From a virus, in IMG/VR virus record IMGVR_UViG_3300009082_000062, positions 1 through 22,900 of that record: a stretch of DNA of 22,900 nt; one strand, 5' to 3'. Within the stretch, counting starts at the first letter, position 1. Each line of letters opens with the position of its first letter. Of the stretch, positions 295 to 22,362 are shown piece after piece. The notes beneath the pieces were generated by a model. That model did no database searches. It saw nothing but the letters and a program-made list of their open reading frames with translations, and was not told where the DNA came from. A program made the position numbers and the translations under genes.

Positions 295-308
295 GAAAGG
301 GAACTACA

Positions 309-1301: not shown

Positions 1302-3314
1302 ATGAGCAACGACTTGATGCGTGCTATAAACCGAAGACGAACCGTATCGGCGGTGACGCTGTACGGAGCGGAGAGGGTAGAGAAGTCGAAGAAGTTCCCG
1401 ATTGGAACCGTACACGTTTGGGGTGGGGTTCGGTACAGGAAGATCGGCGAAGGGGAATGGGACATGGACAAAGACCCCTCGAAGCCTCATCAAGGTTGGG
1501 GTCCGTTGGGGGGAAAGATGAAACCCGAGGCGCAAGCCCACCTTGAAGCGAAGGGGAAGGGTGTAGAGACTCTAGCAGAACACGAAAAGCGCCTTGCGAA
1601 GGAACGCAAAGAAGCAGACGAGGATGTCAAGGCGTACAACTCGTACGACAAGAGGGGGAAACCGAAAGGGGAGACTGGCTACAGTCCTGAAGCGGCGAAG
1701 CGAGTCCACAAGGAGTTTCAGGAGAGTCCTGAAGGCAAGAAGTACGCTCAGGAAGAGTCTGCGTTTCGTATCGCACATGAACGGGGTGGATGGAAACCGG
1801 GAGAGACGGACGAACCGAAGAAAGATGTAGGAAAGCACTCGGTAGGAGCGCACTCTCCTTTCGATTCTAGAGCCTACGCGAGGCTGGACCCCGCCGCTAA
1901 GAAGTATGCGGATGAGCTGTACGAACAGTACAGTACGGCTCCCAAAGATGAGTCGAAGGGTGAAGAGAAGAAGGGTGTTCCGAAGGAACTTCGTCCTGTG
2001 GTGAAAAACCTGTCTCCTGAAATGCGGAAAGACTACCTGACGGTCTACTCTCGCCTTCAAAGAGCCTACGGCAAGGGGGCCAACATCGAAGTGGATTGGT
2101 CTCGGAAAAAGGAGGAAGGCGCTCAAGGCTTCACTGTGACGGTGCCTTCTGCTATTCATGGTAAACAGGAAGCCTATGGGAAGACTCCAACAGAAGCCTT
2201 TCACAAACTGGTGAAGCCTACGCAGGATGCTATCGACCGTTCCTTGAAATCTAGGAGCGAAGAGGAAAAGGAGTCTATCGGTATGAATTCTGACATCCTT
2301 CGAGTGATGAAGCGCAGGAACGCTGTAGAGTCTGTGCTGTCGAAAGCGAGGAAGGGAACACTCAACGAACTGACGAAGGCTACTCCAGTGGAAGAGGTAG
2401 AGGAAAGACGCGAGGAGAGGGAAATCACACTCAGCAAGTCTGCTACCCAGGAACTCGACCTCGCAGGCTTCACAATCTTCCACGGTGACGTGCTGGAGAA
2501 AGCACAGCGACCCGGCCTCGTACAGAAGAAAATAACCGTCAACCGTGGAGGGAAGTCGTTTCAACAGACGGTGTGGGTGAGGCAGGGAGAAGAGAGAACT
2601 CCAGAGGAACAGAAAGAACAAGACGCTGCGAAGAAGGAAGTCGAGAAATACTGGGAGGGGTCCATTCAGCGACACGAACCCAGGAAGACTACCGATTCGT
2701 CGGGTAAGGTTACAGAACGTGGGGGAGAGAAAACAGGAAAGCCCGAGCCTCTGTCCGAGAAGGAACGCGAAGAACTTCGCTCGAAGTACCCCAGTGCTTT
2801 CGGGAAAGAGGGTGAGTCTACCACCTGGGGTCAGAAGAAAAAGGATGTGGCGGCTTTTGAAGCAGCGGCACAGAGACCGGGGACGTTGGAGCATCGAGCG
2901 AAGCATTCAGGACCCGAACAGGTCAAGGACATCATACCGCGTGTCATGGCGAATGTGGGAGAGGGGCGTGAGAAGCCGAAGAGTGGTCTCTCTGAGAAGT
3001 TCAAAGCAGGCATCCTGCGAGACCTCGAAGCGGGGGTACAGAAGGACGTTCGTGCTCTGGCTGAGAAGATTGCAAAGGAGACTCGGGGATTCTCTTCTGA
3101 GGACCTTTACAAGGAGATGATTGGACCGGCTTTTGCGGAAGCCAAGAGAATGTTTGGGCACAACGTCGAGACGGAGAGTCGTACGACTGACGAACGGAGT
3201 GAGATCATTCGGACGCTGAGAGGGTCGGCTATGATGCGGGCTCGGTATGAAGCCGACAAGATCAAGCGTGAGGGATTGGCAGAAGACAAGAGTCGAGCTT
3301 CAACGAAAGACTAG
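309..3314 (+). CDS. Modular basic/charged protein of three fused units, putative internal head or injected protein
   Basis: The frame gives 1001 residues from ATG 309, which follows AGGAAAGGG at good spacing; an upstream in-frame GTG at 264 lies inside the previous gene and was not used. Three units start with similar segments: residue 1 (MDLDLIRVLRRRRSVEEV), residue 332 (MSNDLMRAINRRRTVSAV) and residue 659 (MNSDILRVMKRRNAVESV). Units 1 and 2 then carry a GT[IV]xVWxGxRYxK motif (about residues 25-45 and 363-384). Unit 3 carries an RPGLVQKKITV...VWVRQGEE motif. Unit 1 ends in a Pro/Gln-rich linker (about 267-295). The same motifs occur in the 2102- and 315-residue proteins of this window. There is no catalytic motif I can name. 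Length, charge, linkers and position among head genes suggest a capsid-internal or injected protein; this is inference. A structural hub or assembly factor is the main alternative. Confidence 0.75.
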   Translation: MDLDLIRVLRRRRSVEEVFKSAVLPVGTIRVWDGTRYQKQSNGSWTPMPSGKGGGEAKTSSTQKPAAKEGAAALQQVAPGRWAVPGTAEAKEAAPSAPPGKSGGKLFASEKPTPAGPSEGEYKVGGGKEPTERQLHYEKLFQESPTHDQGTVGESRKFFARSYTKTGPGEWTRGEKQKPLTEAESADQDKEFAQRGARSVAARKRLYHAGLIKTTNDLLTVRDSKGQTVKALLVDVADNGNTLILESGFHEKLFVVRAPWAPKPAVLQPQAQPQAPAQQQQPAQQQAPPAKRPGFIQRVGRAVSAAKQAFVAKSHTENLDRNSIGVGERTVMSNDLMRAINRRRTVSAVTLYGAERVEKSKKFPIGTVHVWGGVRYRKIGEGEWDMDKDPSKPHQGWGPLGGKMKPEAQAHLEAKGKGVETLAEHEKRLAKERKEADEDVKAYNSYDKRGKPKGETGYSPEAAKRVHKEFQESPEGKKYAQEESAFRIAHERGGWKPGETDEPKKDVGKHSVGAHSPFDSRAYARLDPAAKKYADELYEQYSTAPKDESKGEEKKGVPKELRPVVKNLSPEMRKDYLTVYSRLQRAYGKGANIEVDWSRKKEEGAQGFTVTVPSAIHGKQEAYGKTPTEAFHKLVKPTQDAIDRSLKSRSEEEKESIGMNSDILRVMKRRNAVESVLSKARKGTLNELTKATPVEEVEERREEREITLSKSATQELDLAGFTIFHGDVLEKAQRPGLVQKKITVNRGGKSFQQTVWVRQGEERTPEEQKEQDAAKKEVEKYWEGSIQRHEPRKTTDSSGKVTERGGEKTGKPEPLSEKEREELRSKYPSAFGKEGESTTWGQKKKDVAAFEAAAQRPGTLEHRAKHSGPEQVKDIIPRVMANVGEGREKPKSGLSEKFKAGILRDLEAGVQKDVRALAEKIAKETRGFSSEDLYKEMIGPAFAEAKRMFGHNVETESRTTDERSEIIRTLRGSAMMRARYEADKIKREGLAEDKSRASTKD
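1302..2282 (+). repeat. Unit 2 of the three-unit protein, with an internal start-like site
   Basis: Residues 332-658. It begins at ATG 1302, which is preceded by AGGAG (1286-1290) and GAGG (1292-1295) at ribosome-binding distance, although the frame is open through it. It has the basic helix MSNDLMRAINRRRTVSAV and the GTVHVWGGVRYRK hairpin motif. It ends in RSLKSRSEEE. Confidence 0.55.
2283..3314 (+). repeat. Unit 3 of the three-unit protein, with an internal start-like site
   Basis: Residues 659-1001. It begins at ATG 2283, preceded by AAGGAG at 2268-2273, although the frame is open through it. It starts with the basic helix MNSDILRVMKRRNAVESV. It carries the LEKAQRPGLVQKKITV ... VRQGEE type of boundary motif instead of the GTxRxW type, and a charged helical C-terminal half. 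Confidence 0.55.
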
Positions 3315-6260: not shown

Positions 6261-9200
6261 GTGAGACTGGTTCTCCAAAAAGCACCTGCGAAGACGATAC
6301 AGGTGATCGACGTGCTACGAAAGGCAAGCGAGATGAGGAAGCCTGTCGTGTGCCTTCCAGTCGTCGGGCAGGTCGTACTCATCAAGAGCAAGGGTCACGA
6401 ATCGCTTTCCTGTCGAATCAGCGAGGTCAACGAGGACTTCGTGAGGGTGGTGGACGAACAGCGCCGCGTCTTTCGTGTGGATACGAAGGCGCTTGTGGTA
6501 GCGAAGAGTGAACCGACGAGTCAGCACAGGCTGATACTGAAGTCGAAGCTCGTTCGTGTTCCCGCATCGGCGAAGCACAAAGCGTATGTGAGGAATGACC
6601 CGAGAACGAAGAAAGCGAAGACGGGACTTTTACGGGTTCGAGAGATACTGACTGATGATTCGTCATCAGATGAGCTAGTGCGACGGGCACTTTTGTTTTC
6701 ATGGCGAAAGGGAACAGGGACTGTCGGCGCAATCCTGCTACAGGAAGCTGTGAAGGATGAGCTACTTAGGGGAAGAGGTACGGTCTACTACACACCGGGG
6801 TCATACTCTCCCGTTTTCGACCCGTCTGATGAGGAGAAGCCTTATGTCGTGTCGTCCGTAATGCGGGAGAAAATACGAAAAGTTGTTCGGGGGCAGTATC
6901 GAGAGACTCAGAAACAACTGAAAGCACAACGGGGGGAGTGGCCGATCTATACACTCTACCGAGGAGTTGTCGAGGAAGGGTCACTTGGGAATGCTTTGAC
7001 AAGTTGGTCTGATTCTCGCGAGGTTGCAGACAGTTTTGCTGGGGCTGTCCCTGTGATTCGACAGTATGTCCCTGCTCAAAGGATTTTTGCATCTGTTGGG
7101 ACTGAGGGTGAATACCTTGTTCTTCCGGCAGAGGGCACCGAGAAGAGTTTCGAGAAGAGCGAGTATCAAGAGCGTGTAGGTAAGGAATGCGTACAGGCGT
7201 GTTTGGACACACCATACACCCCGTCTCAGAAGATGGACAGGCTGAAAGCAGAGTTCTTGAAAGAGGCACAGGCAAAACAGAGGAAGATTCGAGAAGAGGA
7301 TGAGTGGGCGGAAGGTATCGAGCAGGGTAAGAAGTGGTCGGTTGTCCCCAGTGACTCAGCAGATGCGGCAGTGATGGGACTCGTTGAGAGGAACAGCTAT
7401 CCGAGGGTGATGAACCCCGAGAAGAGGGTCTTTCGTGTGGACACGAAAGCGTTGTGTGTAGCGAAGAGTGGGCTGGCTGCACAGCACAAACTGATATTGA
7501 AAGCGAAGCGTGTCTACGTTGCCCCTTCCTTGGAGCACAGGGGCTACTTTCGCATGGACCCGAGGACGAAGAAGGAAGTAGCGGGGCCTACCAAGATCGA
7601 AGAGCCAAAGCCGGAAGTATCTGAAGAGAAGCCTTCGACCTCAGCCTTACACGGGCAGGAGATTGTTGACGTTGTGTCTGTAGTGGACACTCGGGACTGG
7701 GTAGAAGGTGACGACGACAAGTTCCATCCAGTTCCAGGATCGGGAACAGAGAACACTTGCGCTCGATGTGGAAAGCCTCACGAGATCCACGCAACGGTGA
7801 AGATGGCAGACGGTTCACAGGCAGTTGTGGGTGTGTCTTGTGCCAGAAAAGAATCCATCGAGAAGGAAATCAAGGCAAAGCTGGCAGCGGCACAGACAGG
7901 GAAGAGACTGGAAGCTGAGTTGAAAAGGGCGCAGGAGAAGTTGGTTCAAGCCGAGACAGCGGAGAAAAAGGCGAACGCTCTGCCCCTTCCTCCTTTGGAA
8001 TTGACTGAGATTGACCTACAGGGTGGGGAGAAGATGCCTGTACTTAGGATGGGTGATGCAGAGGTGTGGCTTTCCTATCCTTGGAAACAAGGAGACCCGA
8101 TCTCTGAGGAGAGGAAGAAGGCTGTAGAGTATTCTTGGAGAGACAAACGCTACAAAGAGTCGGGGCTTCCCCTTTCTGCTTATTCCTACTACCAAAGAGT
8201 CAAAGAGCTAGAAAAGTACCTTGCTCGTTACAAGAAACGAGTGGAGCTTGCTGCGGCAGGGGAGTTCGGGAAGGTAGAGAAGTCTCGGCATTCCTTGGTG
8301 CTACACCCCCAGAGCTTGCAGAAATCTCGGGAGGGACTCGTAGAGAAGAAAGTCCCGGTCAAGCTGAAGTCCGGTAAAACCGTCTACGCGATTCGGTACG
8401 TTCGGCAGGATCTAGGCCCTACGTGGTTGAGGCGACGTGAGAAACAGTCGTGGATCAAGGAGAGTGACCCTGACAAGGAGACGATCAGCCTTGCAGACAG
8501 GATGGTAGCCACACCGGAGTTTTCCCCGTTGAAGGAATACTTCACCAAGCAGGAGTACCCCGGTCTTGCTTTTGACCTCGTTGGTGGGGACGCCGAAAAG
8601 ACTCGTCAGAGCATAACTACAGCGAAGGAATACCCGGCAGAGGTTGCAGCCTACGTTGGAAACAGCTTGGACTTCTGTTGGAGGATGTGGGAGAGAACTC
8701 ACAAGGAAGATGCGAAGCTAGAAGCCGCAAAGCTTCTCAGACCAAAAGAGTTCGGAAAGAACTTCCCGACCTTCACGACATGGGCTGCGAAGCACTACGA
8801 AGACAAAGACCTCACGGCAGAGAGTATCCTTACTGCGATGCGAGACGCCATTCATCGAAACTCGAAGAAGTACACGATTCCTGAAGAGAGCCTGTTGGCT
8901 TTCGTTCAAGAGCTTGGACTTCGAGAAGAGAGTCGAGACTCCTTCACGCAGGGGGCACTGGACGAAGCGTTCAAGCAGAAGAAGCTGTCTCCAAAGCAGC
9001 TATCTAAGAAGTTCCCGAGACTGGGGGCCTTCAAGTGGTCTCGCAAGATCACGGTGAGAGAAGCACGGAAGATGGACCTCGCCTTTGAGGAGCTGGAGTT
9101 GGTTGCTCCAGGTGCCTTGAAAGCTCTAGGCCCAAAGCTTACGATCAAACCTCGACGGCTCGGGTATCGTGCGTTTGGTGGGTTGTTCCATCCCAACCTG

Positions 9201-12200
9201 AACGGAACGGGAGAGATCGAGATTGACATTCGATACCGAGAATCTTTCGCGCACGAGATGGGGCACGCTCTGGAGTACCTCGTGCAGAGAGCGAACCTGG
9301 AACCGGGAGTACCTACTGAACAAGCTTCTCGTTGGGTTGGTGGGGGAGCCTTCTTTACAAGAACCTACGTCGGTAGGAAGATTTGGAATGAACTGGTAGA
9401 GAAGGGAACCATCAAGAGGTTCGAGGGGCTGAAGTCAGGCATTCGCGCAGACTACTATGCGAGTCCTGTGGAAGTGTTCGCGAGGATCTTCGAGCAGTAC
9501 ACTGCGGGAAGGCTTGGGAAAGATCATCCGAATCGCGTTACTTTTTCTACACCCACTGCCTTCTCCTTGCAGTATTCCAACGCCTACCTGAACGAGAAGG
9601 AAGCCCAGGACATCCTGCCCCAGTTCGGGGAAGCCGTACGTACGGTGTTCGGTGAAACGATCCTGAAAGCAATCACGCGAAGATTTCGGTTCATCCTGAA
9701 GTCTCGACGACTCCTTCTACTTCAAAAGGGGAAGTCCTTTCCAACAGGAACGATTCGCTACTGGAAAGGCCAAGCGTTCAAGAAGCTTCCTACAGGGGAA
9801 TGGGTCCCTTACAACCTGACCTACGGAAGGAAAGCGACTGAGGAAGAAGTAGATAAGGTCACGTCAGGAGGAAAGGGGCACAACGATCTTGAAAAGAGAC
9901 CAGACGAGAATCCTCCCGACGTAGAGGAATCCTCGAAGGAGACTCCAAAAGAGGAAAAGCCCGTCGTTGAATCTACTGCCCCACTCAAAGAGCCTACCGC
10001 GAAAGAGAACCCTGACGGAACGAAGGTAGAAGAGTCTACCTACTCGGGAGAGCTGGACCCGAAAGCCCTTCTGGAAAAGGAACCTGGGCTGAAAGAGTTC
10101 TTTCAGAAAAGCAGTGAACCAACAGCCCTGCTTGATGCGGTAGCGATTCCTGCCTTTGGTGTGGGGAAGCGTGAGTACCGAAAAGAGGCCGCGATAATTC
10201 ATCCCCTCCTTGCTCAAAGGCTGCGAAGCGACTACGCGCTGGCATTTCGTCTTTGGAAGTTGGCCGATACGGAGGGTAGATCGAACGTACCTGACTTCGA
10301 GGAGATAGAGAAGAAGTACCCCAAGCTGGCAGAGGCCGCAGGGAAGTACGCTACTCGAAGCGTAGAGACAAAGAGGCACTTTACAGGAGCCGTGTCGGGA
10401 ATGCGGAAGTACGTCGATCGTCTTTTACAGTCTTCAATGAAGAGTGGGGACACGCGGGCGTTCGACATCTTGTCTAAGACTATAGCTTCTTGGGAAATCT
10501 CACAGGGTTCTCGGTATCGCTACAACGTCGTGATGAACCCAGGATACGCCGATGAGTTGGCGCGAAGATGGGTCGAACGGCAAAGAGAAGGAACGGCGAA
10601 GAAAATCTCTACGGGGGAGTTCAAGAACCTGAAGGGGATCAAGCTGACGGGTAAGGGTCTTACGAAAGCGCAGGTAGGAATCCTTGACCAGTCTGTTGGT
10701 GAGGTCTTGGAGCGAGTTCCTACAGCGAAGGATCTTGCAGAGCGCACGGGCCTTTCAATCAAGGTGACTACGATACCCAGCAACAAGGCGTCGGGAGTCT
10801 ACGTTCCCGCCAAGAACTACATCGAGCTGGACTTTCGATCACCGAACGCTCTAGCGCATGAGTGGTGTCACTTCTTCGATCACCAACTAGGGGTGTCTTT
10901 GTCTCCTGCATGGAAGGAAGGGGTCGAGAAGGCGAAGGAAATAGGGTGCTACTCACGATGGTTGTCTCTCGGGTACGTGTCGCCCCCATCCTCTGAGAAC
11001 GAGTCCAAAGCGCAGGCGCTCATTGCGAAGATGGCAAAGAACTTTCTTGTGAAAGGGGAGCATCCACCAAACTACTACGATGTAGTAGCCGGGTTGTCTC
11101 TTGCAAGAGAAGGAGAAGCCTACTGGAAGTACCTGAAGACCCGCTACATGGACATAGGGGGTCTGACTGAAGCCGAGATGAGGGAGATTCGAGACCTACA
11201 GGGAACTTCGATAGTCAAGGATCGAGTCTTGTACAGCGACATGGTGAAGAAACACGCCAAGAAGGCGGGCTCCTATGGATCGTACCTCTGTGAGTCAGGA
11301 GAGATGCTGTCCAGGTTGTTCGAGCAGCACGTAGCAACTCGTTCAAAGGATAAGCTTCTCGTTTCAGCACATGCAGAGAAATACTACCAGACCAGGAATG
11401 GCTACTTCACCGAGGAAGAGTACAAGACGCTTCTACCCTACATGGAAAGGGCCTTCGAGGAAAAGGGTGGAAAGGGATTCTTGAAGTCCGTCATGCGGAG
11501 AATGCTTTACATACAGAAATCCCATGAAGGTCTCACAAGGAAAAAGGTCACGGTGCATGGGAAGGGGAAAACCTTTCAAGCTGACCGATGGGTGAGGACA
11601 GGGGAAGAGGAAGCAGAACCTACAGCCACGTCCCCGAAAACTACCGTTGAAGGGGTTCATGTTGAATACGACCACGGAGCGGGTAAAGAAGAATCTGCAA
11701 AGAGCGTGAAGCTCGCGGCAGCGGGTCTTCGAGAAACCTTGGGTGTCTTCAAGGGACTGGGAAAGAAGATGAAGTCCTTTGGAGCAACAGTACGAGTGGG
11801 GAAGATCAGCGGATTGGGTGCTGCCAACGCTCTCTACCAGGCGACCGACAAGGTGCTACTCTTGGATGATGAGCGTGGGAAAGACAGCCTTGTACATGAG
11901 ACGGGGCACCTCATGGACCAGATGTTCCAGGTGACAGGAAGAATTCTACCGAAAGAGAGCTACGATCGAATCGAGAAGATCATTCAAGAGCGCAGGTCTT
12001 CACAGCACCGCTACATCAGCAACGTCTTGTTTCGTGCGTCGATTGCTGGGGACAAAGAAGAGATCGAGGAAGCTCTTCGAGGATCTATGCTCGACCTCAT
12101 TCCTGCGGTGAAAGAGGAACTGACTCAGCTACTTACCCCGAAACCGTCTGTGGCGTGGACGGCTCTGTACTCTTATGAGCAGACAACCTCAATGGCCCTA

Positions 12201-12569
12201 AAGGTTCCTACCTTGGAAGAGGCGGGAGACCCCGGAATTCAGTACACGTCGTACATCAACCGAGAACCCGAAGTGTGGGCAAGGATGCTGAACCAGTACT
12301 TTGCCTATCGGTACTCGAAGACGAAGGGGAGCGAGAAGCCTACGTCGTCTGATTCCTACCAGCAGATGATCGACGCGAAGTCACACTCAGATGTTCGCTT
12401 CGCAAGTGAAGCAGAGAAGGTCGGGTTCAAGTACGCTCCTCGACACTTCATGGACGACAAGGAGTTTCAGAAAGCAGTTCCGTTGATCGAAGCCTGTTTG
12501 AAGGGGACGGGGTTCATCAAGAGCATCTTGCGCGTCCTGGAACTTTTGGGGCAAGGAGAAAGAACATGA
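6261..12569 (+). CDS. Giant multidomain protein: ADP-ribosyltransferase-like domain, zinc-knuckle-like segment and three zincin metallopeptidase-like domains
   Basis: 2102 residues from GTG 6261; GAGG at 6251-6254 is the ribosome binding site, inside the portal gene. Domains in order are an N-terminal basic segment and the first 50-residue repeat (69-118), an ART-like domain (about 119-388), the second repeat (389-438), a Cys segment with C500, C503 and C527 followed by a coiled coil, zincin 1 (HEMGH at 998-1002), zincin 2 (HEWCH at 1533-1537) and zincin 3 (HETGH at 1879-1883). Each zincin has a downstream E-x-hxR segment (E1071, E1681, E2004). Modules are joined by [IL]xK[SA][KRH] plus a beta-hairpin motif. 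The set matches the domain repertoire of phage 'polyvalent proteins', which are thought to enter the host with the DNA. Injection and cleavage into pieces are inference. It ends in a 4-base ATGA overlap with the next gene. Confidence 0.85.
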   Translation: MRLVLQKAPAKTIQVIDVLRKASEMRKPVVCLPVVGQVVLIKSKGHESLSCRISEVNEDFVRVVDEQRRVFRVDTKALVVAKSEPTSQHRLILKSKLVRVPASAKHKAYVRNDPRTKKAKTGLLRVREILTDDSSSDELVRRALLFSWRKGTGTVGAILLQEAVKDELLRGRGTVYYTPGSYSPVFDPSDEEKPYVVSSVMREKIRKVVRGQYRETQKQLKAQRGEWPIYTLYRGVVEEGSLGNALTSWSDSREVADSFAGAVPVIRQYVPAQRIFASVGTEGEYLVLPAEGTEKSFEKSEYQERVGKECVQACLDTPYTPSQKMDRLKAEFLKEAQAKQRKIREEDEWAEGIEQGKKWSVVPSDSADAAVMGLVERNSYPRVMNPEKRVFRVDTKALCVAKSGLAAQHKLILKAKRVYVAPSLEHRGYFRMDPRTKKEVAGPTKIEEPKPEVSEEKPSTSALHGQEIVDVVSVVDTRDWVEGDDDKFHPVPGSGTENTCARCGKPHEIHATVKMADGSQAVVGVSCARKESIEKEIKAKLAAAQTGKRLEAELKRAQEKLVQAETAEKKANALPLPPLELTEIDLQGGEKMPVLRMGDAEVWLSYPWKQGDPISEERKKAVEYSWRDKRYKESGLPLSAYSYYQRVKELEKYLARYKKRVELAAAGEFGKVEKSRHSLVLHPQSLQKSREGLVEKKVPVKLKSGKTVYAIRYVRQDLGPTWLRRREKQSWIKESDPDKETISLADRMVATPEFSPLKEYFTKQEYPGLAFDLVGGDAEKTRQSITTAKEYPAEVAAYVGNSLDFCWRMWERTHKEDAKLEAAKLLRPKEFGKNFPTFTTWAAKHYEDKDLTAESILTAMRDAIHRNSKKYTIPEESLLAFVQELGLREESRDSFTQGALDEAFKQKKLSPKQLSKKFPRLGAFKWSRKITVREARKMDLAFEELELVAPGALKALGPKLTIKPRRLGYRAFGGLFHPNLNGTGEIEIDIRYRESFAHEMGHALEYLVQRANLEPGVPTEQASRWVGGGAFFTRTYVGRKIWNELVEKGTIKRFEGLKSGIRADYYASPVEVFARIFEQYTAGRLGKDHPNRVTFSTPTAFSLQYSNAYLNEKEAQDILPQFGEAVRTVFGETILKAITRRFRFILKSRRLLLLQKGKSFPTGTIRYWKGQAFKKLPTGEWVPYNLTYGRKATEEEVDKVTSGGKGHNDLEKRPDENPPDVEESSKETPKEEKPVVESTAPLKEPTAKENPDGTKVEESTYSGELDPKALLEKEPGLKEFFQKSSEPTALLDAVAIPAFGVGKREYRKEAAIIHPLLAQRLRSDYALAFRLWKLADTEGRSNVPDFEEIEKKYPKLAEAAGKYATRSVETKRHFTGAVSGMRKYVDRLLQSSMKSGDTRAFDILSKTIASWEISQGSRYRYNVVMNPGYADELARRWVERQREGTAKKISTGEFKNLKGIKLTGKGLTKAQVGILDQSVGEVLERVPTAKDLAERTGLSIKVTTIPSNKASGVYVPAKNYIELDFRSPNALAHEWCHFFDHQLGVSLSPAWKEGVEKAKEIGCYSRWLSLGYVSPPSSENESKAQALIAKMAKNFLVKGEHPPNYYDVVAGLSLAREGEAYWKYLKTRYMDIGGLTEAEMREIRDLQGTSIVKDRVLYSDMVKKHAKKAGSYGSYLCESGEMLSRLFEQHVATRSKDKLLVSAHAEKYYQTRNGYFTEEEYKTLLPYMERAFEEKGGKGFLKSVMRRMLYIQKSHEGLTRKKVTVHGKGKTFQADRWVRTGEEEAEPTATSPKTTVEGVHVEYDHGAGKEESAKSVKLAAAGLRETLGVFKGLGKKMKSFGATVRVGKISGLGAANALYQATDKVLLLDDERGKDSLVHETGHLMDQMFQVTGRILPKESYDRIEKIIQERRSSQHRYISNVLFRASIAGDKEEIEEALRGSMLDLIPAVKEELTQLLTPKPSVAWTALYSYEQTTSMALKVPTLEEAGDPGIQYTSYINREPEVWARMLNQYFAYRYSKTKGSEKPTSSDSYQQMIDAKSHSDVRFASEAEKVGFKYAPRHFMDDKEFQKAVPLIEACLKGTGFIKSILRVLELLGQGERT
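6465..6614 (+). repeat. Direct repeat, copy 1, upstream of the ART-like domain
   Basis: It encodes residues 69-118 of the giant protein, from RVFRVDTKALVVAKS to YVRNDPRTKK. It is strongly similar to 7425-7574 in both protein and DNA (for example CTTTCGTGTGGA and GTAGCGAAGAGTG are identical in both). It contains the boundary motif LILKSK. Confidence 0.85.
6618..7424 (+). other. Domain: R-S-E class ADP-ribosyltransferase-like (within the giant gene)
   Basis: Residues about 119-388. The ART triad is readable in order: R234 in YTLYRGVV, the S-W-S strand at 248-250 in TSWSDSREVADSFAG, and E282-G-E284 in TEGEYLVLP, preceded by the typical YVPAQRIFAS strand. E-x-E is the signature of arginine-directed mono-ADP-ribosyltransferases such as T4 Alt/ModA and many toxins. 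The expected reaction is transfer of ADP-ribose from NAD+ to a host protein arginine; the target cannot be read from the sequence. The domain is bracketed by the two direct repeats. Confidence 0.75.
7425..7574 (+). repeat. Direct repeat, copy 2, downstream of the ART-like domain
   Basis: It encodes residues 389-438, from RVFRVDTKALCVAKS to YFRMDPRTKK, and pairs with 6465-6614. Its boundary motif reads LILKAK. The following residues (CARCGKPHEIH ... GVSCARK, with C500, C503 and C527) form a zinc-knuckle-like segment outside the repeat. Confidence 0.85.
8322..9698 (+). other. Domain: zincin 1 module (within the giant gene)
   Basis: Residues 688-1146. It starts with KSREGLVEKKVPV ... YVRQD and a helical region. 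The metallopeptidase core follows: the IEIDIRYRESFAHEMGHALE helix with HEMGH at 998-1002, then YYASPVEVFARIFEQY containing E1071. The YxSPxExFAR-type segment after an HExxH helix is characteristic of the zincin-like domains in phage polyvalent proteins. The histidines and a downstream glutamate would bind zinc. Confidence 0.75.
9699..11516 (+). other. Domain: zincin 2 module (within the giant gene)
   Basis: Residues 1147-1752. It starts with KSRRLLLLQKG and the GTIRYWKGQAFKK hairpin (1163-1175), then an acidic linker and a helical region. The core has VYVPAKNYIELDF, LAHEWCHFFDHQ (H1533, E1534, H1537) and ESGEMLSRLFEQH with E1681. The last part (TLLPYMERAFEEKGGKGFLKS) resembles the ends of zincins 1 and 3. 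The second zinc-helix residue triplet is unusual in having Trp-Cys inside HExxH. Confidence 0.72.
11517..12566 (+). other. Domain: zincin 3 module (within the giant gene)
   Basis: Residues 1753-2102. It starts with KSHEGLTRKKVTV ... RWVRTGEEE. The core has KVLLLDDERGKDSLVHETGH with HETGH at 1879-1883 and REPEVWARMLNQY with E2004. It is shorter than modules 1 and 2 because their N-terminal helical region is absent. It ends in GTGFIKSILRVLELL, similar to the ends of the other two. Confidence 0.72.
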
Positions 12570-14237: not shown

Positions 14238-15095
14238 ATGAGTACGAAAGTAGGATACTCGTACATCACCATGAACAGTGTTCTGTTCAAGGCAGATGCC
14301 ACGGACAAGGACATTTTGTACATCGAAGCAAGCAATCCACAACAGGACAGCCAGAAGGAAGTCGTGTTGAAGAGTGCTCTTGAAGCAGAGACAGAGCACT
14401 TCCTCAAGGTCGGGGTAGTCTCGTACGACCATCAACACAAAATCAGCAAGGACCCCTCCTTCATCGTTGGTGAGCCTCTCGACGTGAAGTTCTCTGCTGA
14501 CGACAGAACGCTCGTGAAGGCTCGCATGTACAACACCAAGTACGGTACAGCTCTCATGGAGCTGGCGAAAGCGAACTCTTCTCGTCTTGGAGCTTCGATT
14601 GGTGGGTACGTCGTACAGCGAACGCAGAAGTTCGACAGGGCGTTGCAGAAAGCAGTCCCGACGATCGCACGGCTTCTGTGGGACGAGGTGGCACTGACTG
14701 CAAAGGCTGTGAACGAAGGCACGACGGTAGCCGGTGGTGGACGTGGGGTGTCTGTGATGCCCTTTCCTGAATTCAAGAAGGCTTGGATCGAAGACCCGAA
14801 AGAGCGTGAGGAAATCGTGAAGGCTCTCATGGCTGGCTACGGAACAGACAGTGCAACCTTCACAGGTGGAAGGTCTCTTCAGGAAGAGTCGTTCCAGGGT
14901 GCGAAGAAGAAAAAGCGAGAGAGGATGCAGCACGCTTTCAAGTGCCTTCTCTCGAATCTCGGCAAGGCGAAGCACTTCGATTATTACGAACTAGAGCGCA
15001 TATGTAGAAGCTACGGTGTGGAGGAAGAGACACCGAACATGGCCCGGCTCATCGTGCAGAGCAAGGGGAACGTGAGAAAGGTTCTGTCATGCTAA
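14238..15095 (+). CDS. Prohead maturation protease (S78-like) with a C-terminal extension
   Basis: 285 residues from ATG 14238, behind AAGGAG. The fold of HK97-type prohead proteases is readable: VVSYDHQHKI with H65 as likely catalytic histidine, FIVGEPLDVKF, then RLGASIGGYV with S120 as likely catalytic serine, and LLWDEVALTAKAVNEGT, the usual 'L.EVSL...N' strand. These enzymes cut scaffold, capsid arms and themselves during assembly. Residues about 199-218 carry AGYGTDSATFTGGRSL, also found near the N-terminus of the capsid protein. A Lys/Arg-rich tail of about 65 residues follows. That tail is unusual and may be a self-cleavage or tethering segment. The gene overlaps the next one by seven bases (ATGCTAA). 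Confidence 0.85.
   Translation: MSTKVGYSYITMNSVLFKADATDKDILYIEASNPQQDSQKEVVLKSALEAETEHFLKVGVVSYDHQHKISKDPSFIVGEPLDVKFSADDRTLVKARMYNTKYGTALMELAKANSSRLGASIGGYVVQRTQKFDRALQKAVPTIARLLWDEVALTAKAVNEGTTVAGGGRGVSVMPFPEFKKAWIEDPKEREEIVKALMAGYGTDSATFTGGRSLQEESFQGAKKKKRERMQHAFKCLLSNLGKAKHFDYYELERICRSYGVEEETPNMARLIVQSKGNVRKVLSC
14832..14891 (+). repeat. Shared capsid/protease motif, copy in the protease tail
   Basis: It encodes residues 199-218 of the protease, AGYGTDSATFTGGRSL followed by QEES, directly after VKALM. It matches 17083-17142 in the major capsid gene in 16 of 20 residues. Confidence 0.85.
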
Positions 15096-16036
15096 CAGAA
15101 CTGCTTCGAGAACGTGCCCGTCGAGAGGCGGTGCAGAAAGCCTTGATCGTGAACGGACTCCCTTTGTCGAAAGGCAAGAAGCTCCCACCGGGAACTGTGA
15201 GAACCTGGAAGGGTCAGGTGTGGAAGAAGGTAGCGGAGGGGAAGTGGGAGAAGGTGAAGGGAGAAAAGAAAGAGGAATCTTCCTACCGTTCTGGTGAACA
15301 GATTGAGCGGGAGAAGTCTGAGTACCGAGATAAAGCTATGGAGCCATTCATACAGAGGGCCACCAAAAACGCTCTTCAACAGGTTCGATGGTTCTCCAAT
15401 CACAGTGGGAGCAAGACGCTTGACCAACGCCTTTTGTCCGAGGGCCTCATCAAAATCGAAAGGGGCTGGCCTCTGCTGACACCAAAGGGAAAAGAGAAAC
15501 TCAAGGAACTTGGTGGGTTGGATAGGGACCCCTCCAAGGAGGAAGAGAAGGAAATGTCCTCGTCTATGAGAAACACGGGAAAGACAAAAGACGCTGAAGG
15601 AGAGAGGCCCAAAGGCTACGCCGCTGTTCGTGCTGAAGCAGAACCCAAAGAGGAAGAGGCCCGAAAGAAGTTCCGTTCCCTTCCAGCAAAAGAGCGTGAG
15701 GGGATGGGGGAGAAGCCTTCAGCGAAGACCATGGACGAGGCGACTGTGGGAAGTGGACTTTTCAGAGACCCGAAACCTCAAGGACTTGCCGCAGAAGCAA
15801 GGGAGCGGGGGGTATCCGTTGCACAGGTGATGCGCGAACGCGGTGTGGCTAGGGTGGAGCCGAAGGGTGAGGAGAAACCCACTACTCCCGAAGGACACGC
15901 GATGAAGATTGCCCGTGACACTCTCCGTATGCCCGATGCGATGGCCGGTGTGATGGGGGGGCCAAGCAAGGCAGAGGCGAGGAAGCGTCTTGGTGAGGAA
16001 GAGTCAGTAAGGATCGAAGGGAAGAAGAAAAAGTAG
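15089..16036 (+). CDS. Basic modular protein sharing the boundary motif of the giant protein
   Basis: 315 residues. ATG 15089 overlaps the protease stop by seven bases, so translation is probably coupled. It starts with the basic helix LLRERARREAVQKAL, then LSKGKKLPPGTVRTWKGQVWKK with W40 and W53, the same hairpin found in the 1001- and 2102-residue proteins. Residues about 105-145 contain RLLSEGLIKIERGWPLLTPK, a winged-helix-like shape. The rest is charged and probably disordered, ending in GKKKK. I see no catalytic motif. The high charge, shared motif and position between protease and scaffold suggest a capsid-internal, possibly DNA-binding protein. This is inference; no family is recognised. 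Confidence 0.7.
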   Translation: MLTELLRERARREAVQKALIVNGLPLSKGKKLPPGTVRTWKGQVWKKVAEGKWEKVKGEKKEESSYRSGEQIEREKSEYRDKAMEPFIQRATKNALQQVRWFSNHSGSKTLDQRLLSEGLIKIERGWPLLTPKGKEKLKELGGLDRDPSKEEEKEMSSSMRNTGKTKDAEGERPKGYAAVRAEAEPKEEEARKKFRSLPAKEREGMGEKPSAKTMDEATVGSGLFRDPKPQGLAAEARERGVSVAQVMRERGVARVEPKGEEKPTTPEGHAMKIARDTLRMPDAMAGVMGGPSKAEARKRLGEEESVRIEGKKKK

Positions 16037-16054
16037 GAATCACTCTAGGCACTT

Positions 16055-16082
16055 CTCAGGTCTACGGACGATAGACCCTGAG
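16055..16082 (+). other. Hairpin between the modular protein gene and the scaffold gene
   Basis: CTCAGGTCTA pairs with TAGACCCTGAG (one bulged C) around a 7-base loop. No T-run follows, so a terminator call is doubtful. It could be an attenuator or RNA-processing structure upstream of the heavily expressed scaffold and capsid genes. Confidence 0.5.
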
Positions 16083-16135
16083 CATCCTAGCCAGTCGATA
16101 CAGTGCAACACAAACACATTCAGGAGGAAAGAAGA

Positions 16136-16936
16136 ATGAAACTGATGGATCGCGCGCGGCGACTGTTGAAGTCGGTCACGGCGGCTGTCGAGCCCACCGC
16201 AGAAGAGCTTGAGAACGCTCCCGAAGAGGAGAGCGCGGGTTCGGAAGTGCGGAAGGCGTTCGACGCTGCGGCGGCTGAGCTTCAGTCGGAGATCGGTGGA
16301 GACGCCGAAGAGAACGAAGACGAGGTGGCTGAGGAGCCCATCGTGAAGGCGAAGGGAAAGAAAGCCCCGCCGGTCGAAGAGGAATCTGAGGAAGAGGACG
16401 AGGAAGAGGAAGGCGAAGAGGACGAGTCGAAGCCCTTCAAGGGCAAGAAGGCTCCTCCGTTCATGAAGAAGTCTGTCGAAGCGGCTGTCTCGGAAGATCC
16501 CGAGAGTGAGGCGGCGATGGACGTTGAGCCGTTCCTGAAATCCCTCGTGAAGGGAATCGATCGACGCATTGACGATCAGGCGACTCAGATTCGAGACATT
16601 GCCGAGACCAACGAGGCAATGTACTCCGTGCTGAAAGTCCTTGCGAAGGCCGTTCTCATGTCGGGGGAGATCACGAAGAGCGTGCATGAGTCTCTCGAAG
16701 CGATCGGGTCGGTTCCCGAGCCTCGCAAGGGGCAGCTCACTCTGATGGATCGGTTCCAGAAGAGCGGGGCGGATGCGACGGACTACGATCCTCGCGTTGC
16801 GAGGGCTACGCTCACCGAGCTTGCGAAGAGCAAGAAGCTCGACTCGCGTCAGGTCGGCGTCGTTGAGATGCGACTGAATCACGGCCAGGAACTTCCTGAC
16901 TTCTTCATTCCGTTCATGGAAAAGAAGTCTGAGTAG
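16136..16936 (+). CDS. Acidic scaffold-like capsid assembly protein
   Basis: 266 residues from ATG 16136, five bases after AGGAGG; an upstream GTG at 16103 in the same frame has no binding site. It starts with MKLMDRARRLLKSV, resembling the starts of the modular proteins. An acidic run (81-98) is flanked by two copies of KGKKAPP (about 74-80 and 103-109). The C-terminal half is helical (residues about 130-200). Seven K-S dipeptides are spread along it (near 12, 112, 135, 181, 209, 231 and 264). Position directly before the major capsid gene, high charge and helix content are the usual marks of scaffolds, which guide capsid assembly and are then degraded. No sequence family is recognised, so the call rests on context and composition. 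Confidence 0.7.
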   Translation: MKLMDRARRLLKSVTAAVEPTAEELENAPEEESAGSEVRKAFDAAAAELQSEIGGDAEENEDEVAEEPIVKAKGKKAPPVEEESEEEDEEEEGEEDESKPFKGKKAPPFMKKSVEAAVSEDPESEAAMDVEPFLKSLVKGIDRRIDDQATQIRDIAETNEAMYSVLKVLAKAVLMSGEITKSVHESLEAIGSVPEPRKGQLTLMDRFQKSGADATDYDPRVARATLTELAKSKKLDSRQVGVVEMRLNHGQELPDFFIPFMEKKSE

Positions 16937-16971
16937 TACGGGCTGAAGAAAGAACGAAGGAGGAAGCAGCA

Positions 16972-18369
16972 ATGAGTATGGAATACGGAAACGCCGCACT
17001 GAACGTGCTGGCGCAGCAGGCGGGAGACGGGTTCGCGATTGCGAACGATCTCGTCCTTGAAGACCTTCAGAAAGCCCTTTCTGCGGGTTACGGAACGGAC
17101 GCGGCGTCGTTCACAGGCGGTCGATCGCTGATGCCCGAGTCGTTGGACACGACTCTCGTCAGCGTTCTGCATTCGGTGGATGAGTCGAAGCTCTTCCAGC
17201 GACTGAAGAAAGAACCTGTCGGTTCGACGGTTCACCAGTGGACGAAGCGGACGGAAGTGGGCGCGGATGAAGGCGTGTTCGTGTCGGAAGGCGGGACCTC
17301 TCAGACGATGAACCAGACGCTCGCTCGCAAGACGCTGAACATGAAGTACATCCAGACCAAGCGTGAAGTGACGCTCCAGATGGCGACGGCGAAGAGCATC
17401 GAGGACGCCCAGGCGCTCGAACAGAACGCCGGTATGCTCCAGATCGTTCGTGTGGTGGAGAAAAACTGCTTCACTGGCAATGCGACGCATGTGACCGAGC
17501 AGTTCGACGGTCTCGAAGCCCTCCTCACGACCAACGTGATCGACATGCGGGGCAAAGACGCGACGACCAGCACGTTCGAGGACAAAATGTCGGAAGGTTG
17601 CAGGAGAATCCGCAACTACTTCGGCAAGGCGACTCTGAGCCTTTCGAGCACGATGGTCATGGAAGATCAGCAGAAGCTGCTTCGTGACAGACTGCGCGTT
17701 CGACCGGGCAAAGAGACGGACGGCGCGACCGTGTTCGACTTCTACCCGACGAAGTTCGGCCGACCGGAACTGCAGGACGACGTGTTCCTTCAGGAAGGTA
17801 GCACGCCGGTCACCGGCAGCCTCGCCGGAATCCCGACCGTTCCCACAGTCAACTCGATCGCGGCGGCTGCCCTTGCGGGTGGCTACTTCGTGGCGGCTGA
17901 CGCGGGAACCTACTACTACAAGATCGTGGCGACGAATGCCTACGGGGATTCGGTTGCAACGGCTGGGTCGAGCGTGGTCGTGGCTGCGGGAGATCGAGTG
18001 ACGATCAACGTAACGGGTGGCGCGACTCTCGGCACCTGCTACAAGATCTACCGATCGAAGAAGAACGCGGCGGATGCGACGGACTGTCGCTACATGAAGA
18101 CCGTGACGTACACGGGTGCCGCTCAGAACCTCTACGACACGAACTCGGACCTTCCGGGAACGTCGAGCGTGTACCTTCTGAACATGGACCCCAACTACGA
18201 CGCGATCGAGTGGAATCAGTTCCTCCCCGCGATGAAGTTCCAGTTGTACCCAAATTCTTCCGCCGTCTATCCTTTTCTTGTTTTGCTCTTTGGCGCGCTC
18301 GCTGTAAAAAAAGAAGAGCAATGTGTACGTATCCGGAATGTAGGATACAGCGGTTTGAGTTGGTTCTAG
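16972..18369 (+). CDS. Major capsid protein
   Basis: 465 residues from ATG 16972, with AAGGAGGAAG upstream. The N-terminal arm has LQKALSAGYGTDAASFTGG. It is followed by the HK97-fold core: VGSTVHQWTKRTEVGADEG, VSEGGTSQ, and KYIQTKREVTLQMATA. Residues about 295-395 form an inserted Ig/FN3-like domain (TYYYKIVATNAYGDS, then CYKIYRSKKNAADATDCRYM). The chain returns to the core at NMDPNYDAIEWNQFLPAMKF and ends with YPFLVLLFGALAVKKEEQ and VRIRNV, which looks like a natural capsid C-terminus. From about base 18250 codon use becomes distinctly less GC-rich than in the rest of the gene, just before the HNH gene. The protein forms the icosahedral shell; the arm may be trimmed by the protease (inference). 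Confidence 0.88.
   Translation: MSMEYGNAALNVLAQQAGDGFAIANDLVLEDLQKALSAGYGTDAASFTGGRSLMPESLDTTLVSVLHSVDESKLFQRLKKEPVGSTVHQWTKRTEVGADEGVFVSEGGTSQTMNQTLARKTLNMKYIQTKREVTLQMATAKSIEDAQALEQNAGMLQIVRVVEKNCFTGNATHVTEQFDGLEALLTTNVIDMRGKDATTSTFEDKMSEGCRRIRNYFGKATLSLSSTMVMEDQQKLLRDRLRVRPGKETDGATVFDFYPTKFGRPELQDDVFLQEGSTPVTGSLAGIPTVPTVNSIAAAALAGGYFVAADAGTYYYKIVATNAYGDSVATAGSSVVVAAGDRVTINVTGGATLGTCYKIYRSKKNAADATDCRYMKTVTYTGAAQNLYDTNSDLPGTSSVYLLNMDPNYDAIEWNQFLPAMKFQLYPNSSAVYPFLVLLFGALAVKKEEQCVRIRNVGYSGLSWF
17083..17142 (+). repeat. Shared capsid/protease motif, copy in the capsid protein
   Basis: It encodes residues 38-57 of the capsid protein, AGYGTDAASFTGGRSL followed by MPES, after QKALS. It is paired with 14832-14891 in the protease tail. 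Confidence 0.85.
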
Positions 18370-18541: not shown

Positions 18542-19054
18542 ATGACTGTACCCCACAGGTTCACCGCTAAGCAGAAAGAATCCATCAAGAAAGACTACGT
18601 TCTAGGAAGAACCACCAAAGAGATTGCGCTACGTTATGCGTGTGGCGTACAAACTGTGCGGAGAATCCTTCGCGCTTTGAGCGTACAGTGGCGTACCACA
18701 CCTCCCATGCTAGGGAAGAAGCACTCGGTAGAGACCAGAAGAAAAATTCGGAGGTCTTCACCAAAAAGGGAAAAGGCCCATGCTTGGAGAGGAGGTCGTG
18801 CCCATGTTCAAGGGTACGTACAGCTACTCGTACCTACTCACCCCAAATGCAACTCTCGTGGGTACGTCATGGAGCACCGATTAGTTATGGAGAAGTTCTT
18901 GGGGCGGTATTTACACCCCAAAGAGGGAGTTCACCATAAAAATGGGTGCAGAGAAGATAACCGACTTGAGAATTTAGAGTTGGTAGCTAAACCCGGAAGG
19001 CACCTTGCCCACGCAACGTGTCCTTACTGCCAACGATCATTTGCTGTTCGCTAA
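18542..19054 (+). CDS. Free-standing HNH homing-type endonuclease
   Basis: 170 residues from ATG 18542; the binding site (AGGGA, about 12 bases upstream) is weak. An N-terminal helix-turn-helix (residues about 6-46: TTKEIALRYACGVQTVRRIL) is followed by a NUMOD3-like DNA-binding segment (MLGKKHSVETRRKIRR). The HNH nuclease domain follows: RGYVMEHRLVMEKFLGRYL, then EGVHHKNGCREDNRLENLEL with H131/H132 and the N residues. A CPYC pair sits near the end. HNH proteins of this type cut DNA of related phages so that their own gene and flanks are copied across. It sits immediately downstream of the capsid gene and is less GC-rich than its neighbours, as expected of a mobile gene. No intron or intein around it was recognised. 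Confidence 0.85.
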   Translation: MTVPHRFTAKQKESIKKDYVLGRTTKEIALRYACGVQTVRRILRALSVQWRTTPPMLGKKHSVETRRKIRRSSPKREKAHAWRGGRAHVQGYVQLLVPTHPKCNSRGYVMEHRLVMEKFLGRYLHPKEGVHHKNGCREDNRLENLELVAKPGRHLAHATCPYCQRSFAVR

Positions 19055-19671: not shown

Positions 19672-22362
19672 ATGCCGAAGAAAGACTACTCAGGTCGTGA
19701 CCTTCGCCTCGACGAGATTGCGAATTTCATTGCTGTCGACGTTGACGACGATGGAAACCCCGACGCCGTAGGTGTCTGCAATCCCGATGGTTCCCCGGTG
19801 GGAGCCTCAGCTCGTCTCATCGACGACTGTGAAGTCTACACGGACTGGTCTGCTGTAGCGGCCAGTGCTGCGGACACGATCGCTGCGAGCACGACGCACA
19901 GGATCGGAGCGAAGTCGGTGTCGTTCGCGAAGAACGGAACCGCTGTGATTGCTGCGATTCAGAAGTCGTGGCCCGTCGCGATCAACTACGGAGTGGAGGA
20001 GGCGGCGAGGGAGGCGATTCAGTGGACGATGTACCTGCCAACGGTGGTAGGTGTCACGAACGTTTTCATTCGCCTGGGAAAAGACGCTACGAACTACGCG
20101 CAGGTGACGGTCCCTGTCGCTTCTTTGAAAGGAGCACAGTGGAACAGAATCTCTGTTCAGTTCCTCGACGACACAGCCTGGACGCAGGTTGGCACGGGCT
20201 TTGACACGGCGGATCTTCGCTACATTGCTATTGGAATCACGACGGCGGCTGCCGCAACGGCGATTGCAGGAATCCTTATCGACAATATCTTGTCGATCGA
20301 CTATGTAGAGACGAACATGCGTGCGTCGATCACCGTTACGACGGCGGGTGTCACGAAGATCGAGGGTGGAGTCGGAGGGGCGATTCTCGACGTGACGGCA
20401 GATGGTGGGAACAACGCCGCCTTCGTGCAGTCGAACAGCTTGGCCACCGAAGTAACAGTGGCTACTCTCGCCACAGAAGCCACCGCAGCTACTCTAGCTA
20501 CTGAGGCGACTGTTGCAACGCTTGCCACGGAAGCGACCGTTGCTACGCTTGGGACTGAAGCTACGTTGGCAACGTTGGCTACCGAAGCCACGACTGCAAA
20601 AGAAGCCACGCTCGCGTTGGTCGCTACCGAGGCGACTCTTGCTACGCTCGCAACAGAAGCCACGACGGCGAAGGAGGCGACTCTTGCTCTGGTTGCGACA
20701 GAGGCCACTCTCGCAACTCTCGGGACAGAGGCGACACTTGCAACGCTTGCAACGGAAGCAACAGCAGCGACCCTCGCGACCGAGGCCACCGCAGCGACGC
20801 TGGCGACCGAGGCTACGACGGCGAAAGAAGCGACGCTGGCTCTTGTCGCGACGGAGGCCACGACCGCAAAAGAGGCAACACTCGCGCTGGTAGCCACGGA
20901 GGCAACGGTATCCACCCTCGCCACCGAGGCGACCGTCGCAACATTGGCGACAGAGGCGACCCTCAGCACAATCGAGAGCGAGACATCCAACATAGAGTCT
21001 AGCGTCGATGAGATGAAGAACGTCGTCTATGCGAACGATGCCGTCGTTGGAGTGGGAAAAGGGAACCTCGGTGCGGCAAAGTACGAGGCCGCGCTCACTA
21101 CGGTCACCGCAGGAAACGCTGCTATATCGAAGGCGGACCAATATGGAAGACTGCACGTAAACGTATCCGCCGCCGACGCAGGGTTGGCCACGTCCGCGAA
21201 GCAGGACACGGGGAACAGTTCGCTGTCAAACATCGACGGGAAGCTGGGGACGCTCGGCCAGAAGGCCATGTCGGGGTCAGCCCCGGTGGTGATGGCGAGC
21301 GACCAGAGTGCTCTGCCGACTAGGGGTGAGGTGGTGTTGCTTGGGAGCTACACCTCGTCTGGTTCGTGGAATCTGATCGGAGGGGCGACGAACTTAGGCA
21401 CGCGGGACTCTGAGGGTGTCCGAGGCACGAATGGGATTAAGTTTGATGGTGCGGGTAGTGGCGTCGGAGTGTACTGCGGGATTGAGACTACCTTCACAGC
21501 TGTAGGGGTCCCGAGAACGGCACGGAACATTCAGTTGCGCGTTATTTTCTCTTGCGTCGATGGTGCTACGTATGGGACTTTACAAATTAGGGTTCGCGCC
21601 GGAGCTAACGAGCGGACGTTCACCGTACCGCAATCCAGTCTCCTGTCTTACTGGAACGTCGTGTACATCCCGTGGGAAGACCCCTCTTACGCTTTGTCGG
21701 TCAACACGTTACCGAGCGAAGCGGCATTGACGCGGGTCTACTTTGAGGTCGATGACACTTCTGGATCGACATACATCGTCAATGAGATTTCCCTCTGCGC
21801 GACCTATGCACCCCTTGCGGACAAGTATGGCAACCCGATCACAAGCAAGGACGAGGGGTCTGCTGTCCAGTCCATCGACACGAATGTACGGTCGAACACC
21901 GCCCAAGCGGCTTCCGACGCGGCGGCTCCCGCGCAAGTAGTGGCCCTTGGAGCGAAGTACGAGTCTGCGCTGACCTCGGTCGGTACGACGAACGACATCA
22001 CCGCGCTGAAGGCCACGAAGGACGGGCGGCTCATCGTGGAGGAAAAGGACTCCGCGACGCACTGGGAGTACCACGGGAACTTCGCGGCGGCGCAGACAGA
22101 CCTCGTCTTGAAGGCCGCGCCGGGAGCGGGGCTGAAAATCCGCATCCTCGGCTACTCCATGAGCACGGACGCCGCCGTGTCCTTCAACGTGCAGGACGCG
22201 GACGACGCGACGGTGCTCGGGACGAAGTACCTGACGGCACGGCAGACGATCCACGTCGAGAGATGCGACTACCGCGCCCCGACGAACAAGGCGCTGGAGT
22301 TGGACACCATAGGGGCGGTGAACCATTCCATCGACATCCACGGCGATGTGGTGCCCGCGTAG
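19672..22362 (+). CDS. Fibre-like structural protein with a long 6/9-residue (ATx) repeat
   Basis: 896 residues from ATG 19672, behind CAGGAG. Residues 1-250 look like a beta-sandwich domain with LIDDCEVYTDWSAVAAS at its start and IRLGKDATNYAQVTVP inside it. Residues 257-433 are 21 repeat units of nine (LATEATVAT type) or six (EATLAT/EATTAK type) residues. A linker with NIDGKLGTLGQKAMSGSAP and VVMASDQSALP follows; this phrase recurs in environmental phage fibres. A second beta-sandwich occupies about 560-710, and a C-terminal small beta domain (LKIRILGYSMSTDAAVSF) ends the chain. The protein is probably a trimeric tail or head fibre, perhaps host-recognising at the C-terminal end. The 3' third is more GC-rich than the middle, suggesting a swapped tip domain. 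Confidence 0.75.
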   Translation: MPKKDYSGRDLRLDEIANFIAVDVDDDGNPDAVGVCNPDGSPVGASARLIDDCEVYTDWSAVAASAADTIAASTTHRIGAKSVSFAKNGTAVIAAIQKSWPVAINYGVEEAAREAIQWTMYLPTVVGVTNVFIRLGKDATNYAQVTVPVASLKGAQWNRISVQFLDDTAWTQVGTGFDTADLRYIAIGITTAAAATAIAGILIDNILSIDYVETNMRASITVTTAGVTKIEGGVGGAILDVTADGGNNAAFVQSNSLATEVTVATLATEATAATLATEATVATLATEATVATLGTEATLATLATEATTAKEATLALVATEATLATLATEATTAKEATLALVATEATLATLGTEATLATLATEATAATLATEATAATLATEATTAKEATLALVATEATTAKEATLALVATEATVSTLATEATVATLATEATLSTIESETSNIESSVDEMKNVVYANDAVVGVGKGNLGAAKYEAALTTVTAGNAAISKADQYGRLHVNVSAADAGLATSAKQDTGNSSLSNIDGKLGTLGQKAMSGSAPVVMASDQSALPTRGEVVLLGSYTSSGSWNLIGGATNLGTRDSEGVRGTNGIKFDGAGSGVGVYCGIETTFTAVGVPRTARNIQLRVIFSCVDGATYGTLQIRVRAGANERTFTVPQSSLLSYWNVVYIPWEDPSYALSVNTLPSEAALTRVYFEVDDTSGSTYIVNEISLCATYAPLADKYGNPITSKDEGSAVQSIDTNVRSNTAQAASDAAAPAQVVALGAKYESALTSVGTTNDITALKATKDGRLIVEEKDSATHWEYHGNFAAAQTDLVLKAAPGAGLKIRILGYSMSTDAAVSFNVQDADDATVLGTKYLTARQTIHVERCDYRAPTNKALELDTIGAVNHSIDIHGDVVPA
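20440..20970 (+). repeat. 21-unit repeat in the fibre gene (17 nonads, 4 hexads)
   Basis: It encodes 177 residues of the pattern A-T-x, with x cycling through Leu, Glu and Val/Ala/Thr. Every unit is 9 or 6 residues. Protein units are nearly identical, but synonymous codons differ strongly from unit to unit. Confidence 0.9.

Follow-up and report, generated by a model that had tools for sequence, protein, structure and literature searches.

In herpesviruses, the protease of the assemblin-scaffold precursor (UL26/UL26.5 type), probably of the same fold class as the phage enzyme considered here, enters the procapsid by means of a C-terminal part that attaches to the major capsid protein and is later cleaved away; it shares this tail with the scaffold. 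Among phages, T4, HK97 and D3 package their head maturation proteases at about 55-90 copies (PMC9958956, PMC12749128), with about 60-90 copies per prohead in HK97 and D3, where an N-terminal domain of the major capsid protein (MCP) is removed (PMC12749128). In the accounts consulted for SPN3US, the C-terminal propeptide of protease gp245 is described as removed by self-cleavage, and experiments are used to argue for its proposed role in targeting the enzyme to the prohead core (PMC5694885, PMC7411985). The capsid-targeting sequence of T4 is a short N-terminal propeptide on other, internal proteins (PMC7411985). Protease tails that target the prohead have already been proposed in other phages. 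Recruitment number and timely release of maturation proteases are unsettled, the targeting tail of giant phages being only a proposal. Here we describe a virus record of 22.9 kb (IMG/VR record IMGVR_UViG_3300009082_000062, positions 1 to 22,900; hereafter the window, to which all residue and nucleotide positions refer) whose head maturation protease carries, behind its catalytic domain, a copy of the N-terminal arm of the MCP, including the predicted maturation cleavage site. By copying the capsid arm, this tail points to its partner. We found no description of a protease tail copying an MCP arm in the searchable, open-access literature, which leaves subscription journals largely outside.

The shared segment consists of a K/A dipeptide (protease K195/A196, MCP K34/A35; the slash marks the bond) followed by AGYGTDxAxFTGGRSL. 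The initial annotation had placed this motif at residues 199-214 of the protease and 38-53 of the capsid protein, and translation bears this out: the protease copy is AGYGTDSATFTGGRSL (14832-14879) and the MCP copy AGYGTDAASFTGGRSL (17083-17130), with 14 of 16 residues identical. The [QV]KAL reported ahead of both copies is also present (VKALM and QKALS), but one variable residue separates it from the motif. Searched with a degenerate DNA pattern of the motif, the window matches at these two places only, and 100 shuffles give no match. Local alignment of the protease with MCP residues 1-140 gives a score of 103 (z 14.0; best of 300 shuffles, 56) and pairs protease residues 191-218 (14808..14891) with MCP residues 30-57 (17059..17142), both on the plus strand, as are the protease, scaffold and MCP features described below. 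Over 22 motif codons, the two copies have 73% identity in protein and 64% in DNA, and 2 of the 8 shared fourfold-degenerate sites are equal. Because so few of these sites agree, the likeness is held at the protein level and is no fresh DNA duplication; the silent-site divergence therefore indicates that the protein identity of the copies reflects long-term selection. On the same count, recent gene conversion is unsupported as its cause in the window.

The MCP gene (16972..18369, 465 aa) was identified by matches to PHROG 752 (major head protein, E 3.9e-68), Pfam SU10_MCP (25.8 bits; cut-off, 24.1) and PDB entry 9vel (E 1.4e-26), with 5lii and 9row as further PDB relatives. Its maturation site is assigned through relatives with a documented mature N-terminus. 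In Cps of Listeria phage A511, the annotated mat_peptide starts at S24, directly after the K that precedes the motif, so that 23 residues are removed. PDB chain 9row_B (439 aa) begins with SFQTGYG, just past the same K, and the precursor 5lii_P (463 aa) has VVK ahead of the SFQTGYG stretch. The K preceding the motif, K34 in the window, is invariant in both MCP alignments. By homology to A511 Cps and 9row_B, the window MCP is predicted to be cut at K34/A35 (17071..17076), which would remove a propeptide of residues 1-34 (16972..17073), homologous to the stretch removed or absent in these two relatives. In the MCP model (all structure models here are single-chain predictions), the motif forms an unfolded arm following a helix, with a predicted local distance difference test score (pLDDT) below 50 at residues 39-44 and 51-65. 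Further along the protein, antibody light chains are matched weakly by residues 316-392 in HMMER (E of 0.018 or more), which hints at an Ig-like insertion, but these matches are probably of low specificity.

The protease gene (14238..15095, 285 aa) matches PHROG 1028 (head maturation protease, E 1.6e-16) over residues 23-220. Residues H65 and S120, the predicted catalytic pair that is conserved in the T4 gp21/herpes class, are both invariant in an alignment of 13 relatives and in one of 50. The catalytic domain (about residues 21-165; 14298..14732; pLDDT mostly >78) has T4 gp21 (5jbl) as its best Foldseek match in the PDB (probability 1.00), and herpesvirus proteases are also among the best, although E values of these matches lie between 4e-3 and 0.06 and TM-scores are modest. 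In the AlphaFold2 model, the motif belongs to a flexible stretch (residues 200-209 and 211-217 disordered, pLDDT <50) that links the catalytic domain to a C-terminal helical domain (residues 222-285; 14901..15092) of three predicted helices, with pLDDT of about 73-90 in most blocks. Two candidate self-cleavage sites precede the motif. The upstream one, K181/A182 (14778..14783), has a K invariant in both protease alignments and usually reads AKS in relatives; the other, K195/A196 (14820..14825), is aligned with K34/A35 of the MCP and therefore copies its maturation site, with K at this position in about 114 of 116 distinct proteases. Self-cleavage may take place at either of them. A PDB sequence search with the window protease returned nothing useful, and the protease of phage phiSA_BS1, used as the query, matched the MCP N-arm of the phage 812 type (5lii, E 5.7e-8).

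The initial annotation saw no obvious reason for a capsid motif in a protease tail, which overlooks its occurrence throughout the family. Related proteins are known from Herelleviridae and from several proteobacterial phages of about 90 kb that form a group (PHB04, ST4, Jeremy, Touem01, fHe-Yen8-01, phiT5282EW and Mecenats66), and every one of those examined has the segment in both protease and MCP, including nine Herelleviridae (A511, CampHawk, SBSphiC, phiSA_BS1, BSP38, EF24C-P2, SAC12B, BtpYZU04 and Goe8). A search of IMG/VR with the motif pattern retrieved 64 stretches, all 64 inside a protease or MCP open reading frame (ORF) of the family, and the same search in 84,980 bacterial and archaeal genomes of GTDB gave 14 matches, all in these two genes. 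Both samples are selected by the motif itself. How often related proteases carry the motif was therefore asked again with queries that lack it, one alignment being limited to the catalytic domain and the other to the MCP body, both built from closer relatives (single-sequence searches of IMG/VR with each window protein found no relatives). With these queries, the motif is present in 67 of 68 distinct proteases and in 65 of 66 distinct MCPs, the sole missing MCP beginning at a contig end. When all 5593 ORFs of the loci were scored for the motif, the lowest motif-bearing protease or MCP reached 34 and the best other ORF 9.3. The protease and MCP pair was also seen in bacterial assemblies (L249-L262; Treponema, other Spirochaetes, Nitrosomonas, Oxalobacter and Parvibaculum), there belonging to prophages or co-binned phages; the spirochaete copies have the GGR variant of the motif found in the window.

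We then compared the evolution of the two copies. Copies evolving independently should leave the protease copy equally near to the MCP copy of its own genome and to foreign ones. In 83 non-redundant genomes, the identity between copies is 0.649 within a genome and 0.537 between genomes (p 5e-5), and the closeness within genomes persists when shuffling is restricted to the inside of clades (0.649 vs. 0.594 expected). On independent pairs of the MCP-body tree, same-direction changes amount to 47.0 and opposite ones to 12.4, summed over columns that are not independent, so that these sums serve as supporting evidence only. Individual genomes illustrate this coupling: Brochothrix phage BtpYZU04 has an odd form, KSMTTGY.HGGTDQ..G.ALRRQSLA (TTGY(N/E)HGG), in both proteins, and in one locus (L087) the ASNYQTD insertion of the MCP copy is present in the protease copy too.

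Between the two genes, at 16136..16936, lies a putative scaffold gene (266 aa), recognised by its K[SA] enrichment and by its position, which is the same as in relatives. In this protein, 12 of 25 K residues are followed by S or A (0.48 vs. 0.19 expected), and across scaffold ORFs S is the residue after K in 26.7% of cases, where composition would predict 6.8%. MCP bodies show no enrichment of S or A after K. None of the scaffold ORFs among the 5593 scored has the motif. Since scaffolds are enriched in K[SA] yet lack the motif, the protease probably cleaves in general at K/[SA], and the motif is an additional element confined to protease and MCP. Moreover, the proteases of L004, L062 and SAC12B have the motif without K/A directly before it, but with K[SA] sites upstream. 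The motif is therefore no simple cleavage signal. At six loci (L035, L044, L054/L055, L057, L065 and L069), which share the GGR variant with the window, the protease is 497-534 aa long with the motif after the catalytic part, the DNA ahead of the MCP gene leaves no space for a scaffold gene of its own, and in the five examined 9-12 K[SA] follow the motif. These long proteins look like fusions of protease, motif and scaffold. In the window, the protease and scaffold genes are separated by an ORF of 315 aa (15089-16036), whereas they are direct neighbours in most annotated relatives.

Among the described systems, one parallel to the tail proposed here is the removable C-terminal propeptide of SPN3US gp245 which, with phiKZ gp175, belongs to the same broad protease class. 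The sources consulted have gp245 cleaving after A-X-E, whereas the site here is K/[SA], and they describe no MCP-arm copy. T4 has in common with the window the gene order protease-scaffold-MCP, probably the protease fold (best match 5jbl), and the removal, predicted for the window, of an N-terminal MCP propeptide. However, local alignment of T4 gp21 with the N-terminus of gp23 shows no significant shared segment (z 1.5), and the window motif, being C-terminal of the catalytic domain, differs from the N-terminal targeting sequence of the T4 type. In HK97, no protease-MCP segment is shared either (z 2.6, the best shuffle scoring higher), and in HK97 and D3 the scaffold (delta) domain is part of the MCP. 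The same alignment found no shared segment in three relatives of Bacteroides phages, the genomes of DAC16, SJC03 and MT835500, the last a faecal phage. A motif common to all tailed-phage proteases is thus rejected. The window also departs from the herpes layout, as its tail is shared with the MCP and scaffold ORFs are motif-free; the fusion loci L035, L044, L054, L065 and L069, with protease, motif and a scaffold-like part in one ORF, come nearer to it.

On balance, we lean towards a mechanism in which the protease carries a C-terminal propeptide that mimics the MCP N-arm together with its cleavage site, recruits the enzyme to the procapsid and is removed during maturation. The protease would then comprise the catalytic domain followed by this propeptide, which would begin with the N-arm copy, maturation site included, and end with the helical domain. 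Both proteins follow a common order: a part that would be separated (the propeptide in the MCP, the catalytic domain in the protease), K/A, and the N-arm motif. The motif would dock the protease on the surface of the procapsid that receives the MCP N-arm, either the MCP lattice or the scaffold core, and every procapsid would thereby incorporate some of the protease. On maturation, the enzyme would cut K/A in the MCP, and the copied K/A and/or K181/A182 in itself or its neighbours; these cuts would trim the MCP arm and free the enzyme from its anchor. The segment, its conservation across the family, its confinement to two proteins and its covariation within genomes are observed, as is the match of the MCP site to relatives whose mature N-terminus is documented; docking, recruitment and release, like self-cleavage at K195 or K181, are inferred. 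The position of the motif in the two models also speaks for this mechanism, and the propeptide of SPN3US gp245 is a precedent. Detection of the protease in virions of the P100-like phage CKA15 was reported earlier (PMC12282133). The initial annotation had suggested a common cleavage or docking site. The segment does include the K/A at which, by homology to A511 Cps and 9row_B, maturation would occur, but the cut would fall at this upstream K/A and not in the motif, for which a role as common docking element is favoured. We also entertain, with some doubt, a more specific form of this mechanism, in which the protease tail fills a site of the procapsid lattice that an MCP N-arm would take, and the catalytic domain hangs in place of the MCP propeptide. 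If so, the protease dose per shell would be fixed, and self-release and arm trimming would use the same cleavage context.

Several observations weigh against recruitment by arm mimicry. In one protease lineage (L153, also L155 and L227), the motif is replaced while K/S is kept and the MCP is normal, and in L253 an internal deletion runs through the protease motif while the MCP keeps its own. With two lineages lacking it in the protease, the motif helps but is not strictly indispensable in every phage. Fourfold-degenerate sites also agree more often within genomes (0.476) than between genomes (0.380). Shared codon usage may explain this excess, and rare gene conversion may contribute to the likeness of the copies, the motif DNA being near-identical in the two copies of L024 and L169. 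Covariation would also be expected from occasional gene conversion followed by silent drift, or if the protease reads both copies.

This last possibility, reading of the motif by the protease itself, is the main rival. The enzyme would bind the motif beside K/A, which would present the MCP arm for cleavage, and its own copy, as a tethered pseudo-substrate, would prevent activity before assembly. In nearly all MCPs and proteases, the motif directly adjoins K/A on the P' side, the two copies covary within genomes, and there is a precedent in the structure of preactive T4 gp21, in which an N-terminal segment blocks the catalytic centre (PMC9958956). However, the motif is missing from scaffolds despite their many K[SA] sites, which could be reconciled with this explanation if the MCP needs an extra exosite. 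A pseudo-substrate should also keep its spacing to the scissile bond, whereas L004, L062 and SAC12B have no K/A adjacent to the motif. The AlphaFold2 model, in which the tail is not confidently packed, is weak evidence in the same direction. Recognition of the motif by the protease, or autoinhibition through it, appears rather unlikely, though it deserves to be taken seriously.

Convergence would give the likeness another origin, with tails acquiring the motif independently under selection by the same partner. In its favour, the homologous block covers little sequence, and selection by one partner would change both copies alike. But the cleavage site is part of the likeness, which in Herelleviridae also extends beyond the motif (L..LTY in phiSA_BS1, BtpYZU04 and Goe8); this is easier to obtain by copying. 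We consider convergence improbable, and it is plausible that the MCP arm was copied onto the protease long ago; the functional conclusion is unchanged in either case.

It is very doubtful that the shared stretch is a cleavage consensus, i.e. the sequence around every site of the protease. The segment does begin at a cleavage site, and MCP, protease and scaffold all have K with S or A after it, but scaffolds share K/[SA] only, the motif is absent from all other ORFs, and no pattern match in IMG/VR or GTDB falls outside the two genes. As a general substrate consensus, the motif is rejected by its absence from scaffolds. Finally, the initial annotation's other suggestion was the trace of a fragment of the MCP gene fused to the protease gene. 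Taken as a relic without function, it would account, as a copied piece, for the single aligned block of 44 columns (E 8e-18) that profile comparison of protease tails with MCP arms yields, but it is barely credible, since a relic would decay, whereas this segment is retained in almost all relatives, has diverged at silent sites and tracks the MCP copy of its own genome.

If the proposed mechanism is true, recruitment, dosage and release of the protease would rest on one short element, a rule that would cover Herelleviridae (SPO1, A511 and relatives of staphylococcal phages) and large environmental groups. The question bears on how capsid-trimming enzymes enter phage heads. The motif would also show where maturation cleavage falls in capsid proteins that lack annotation, which number in the thousands, and is a candidate tag for packing foreign proteins into such heads.

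Other genes of the window show further features. Shortly after the MCP gene lies an HNH endonuclease gene (18542-19054; PHROG 20891, E 1.4e-24). An ORF of 2102 aa (6261-12569) contains three HExxH metallopeptidase-like sites (HEMGHALEY, HEWCHFFDH and HETGHLMDQ) and 42 K[SA] dipeptides (0.21 of K vs. 0.15 expected); it resembles a chain of repeated modules, which are perhaps head-internal proteins that the maturation protease separates. In an ORF of 1016 aa (264-3314), a leader is repeated three times (MDLDLIRVLRRRRSV, MSNDLMRAINRRRTV and MNSDILRVMKRRNAV). A PxGTxxxWxG element is found in both of these ORFs and, as PPGTVRTWKG, in the ORF at 15089-16036. Lastly, an ORF of 896 aa (19672-22362) includes a long run of repeats of the ATLATEATxATLATEAT type at 20200-21000.

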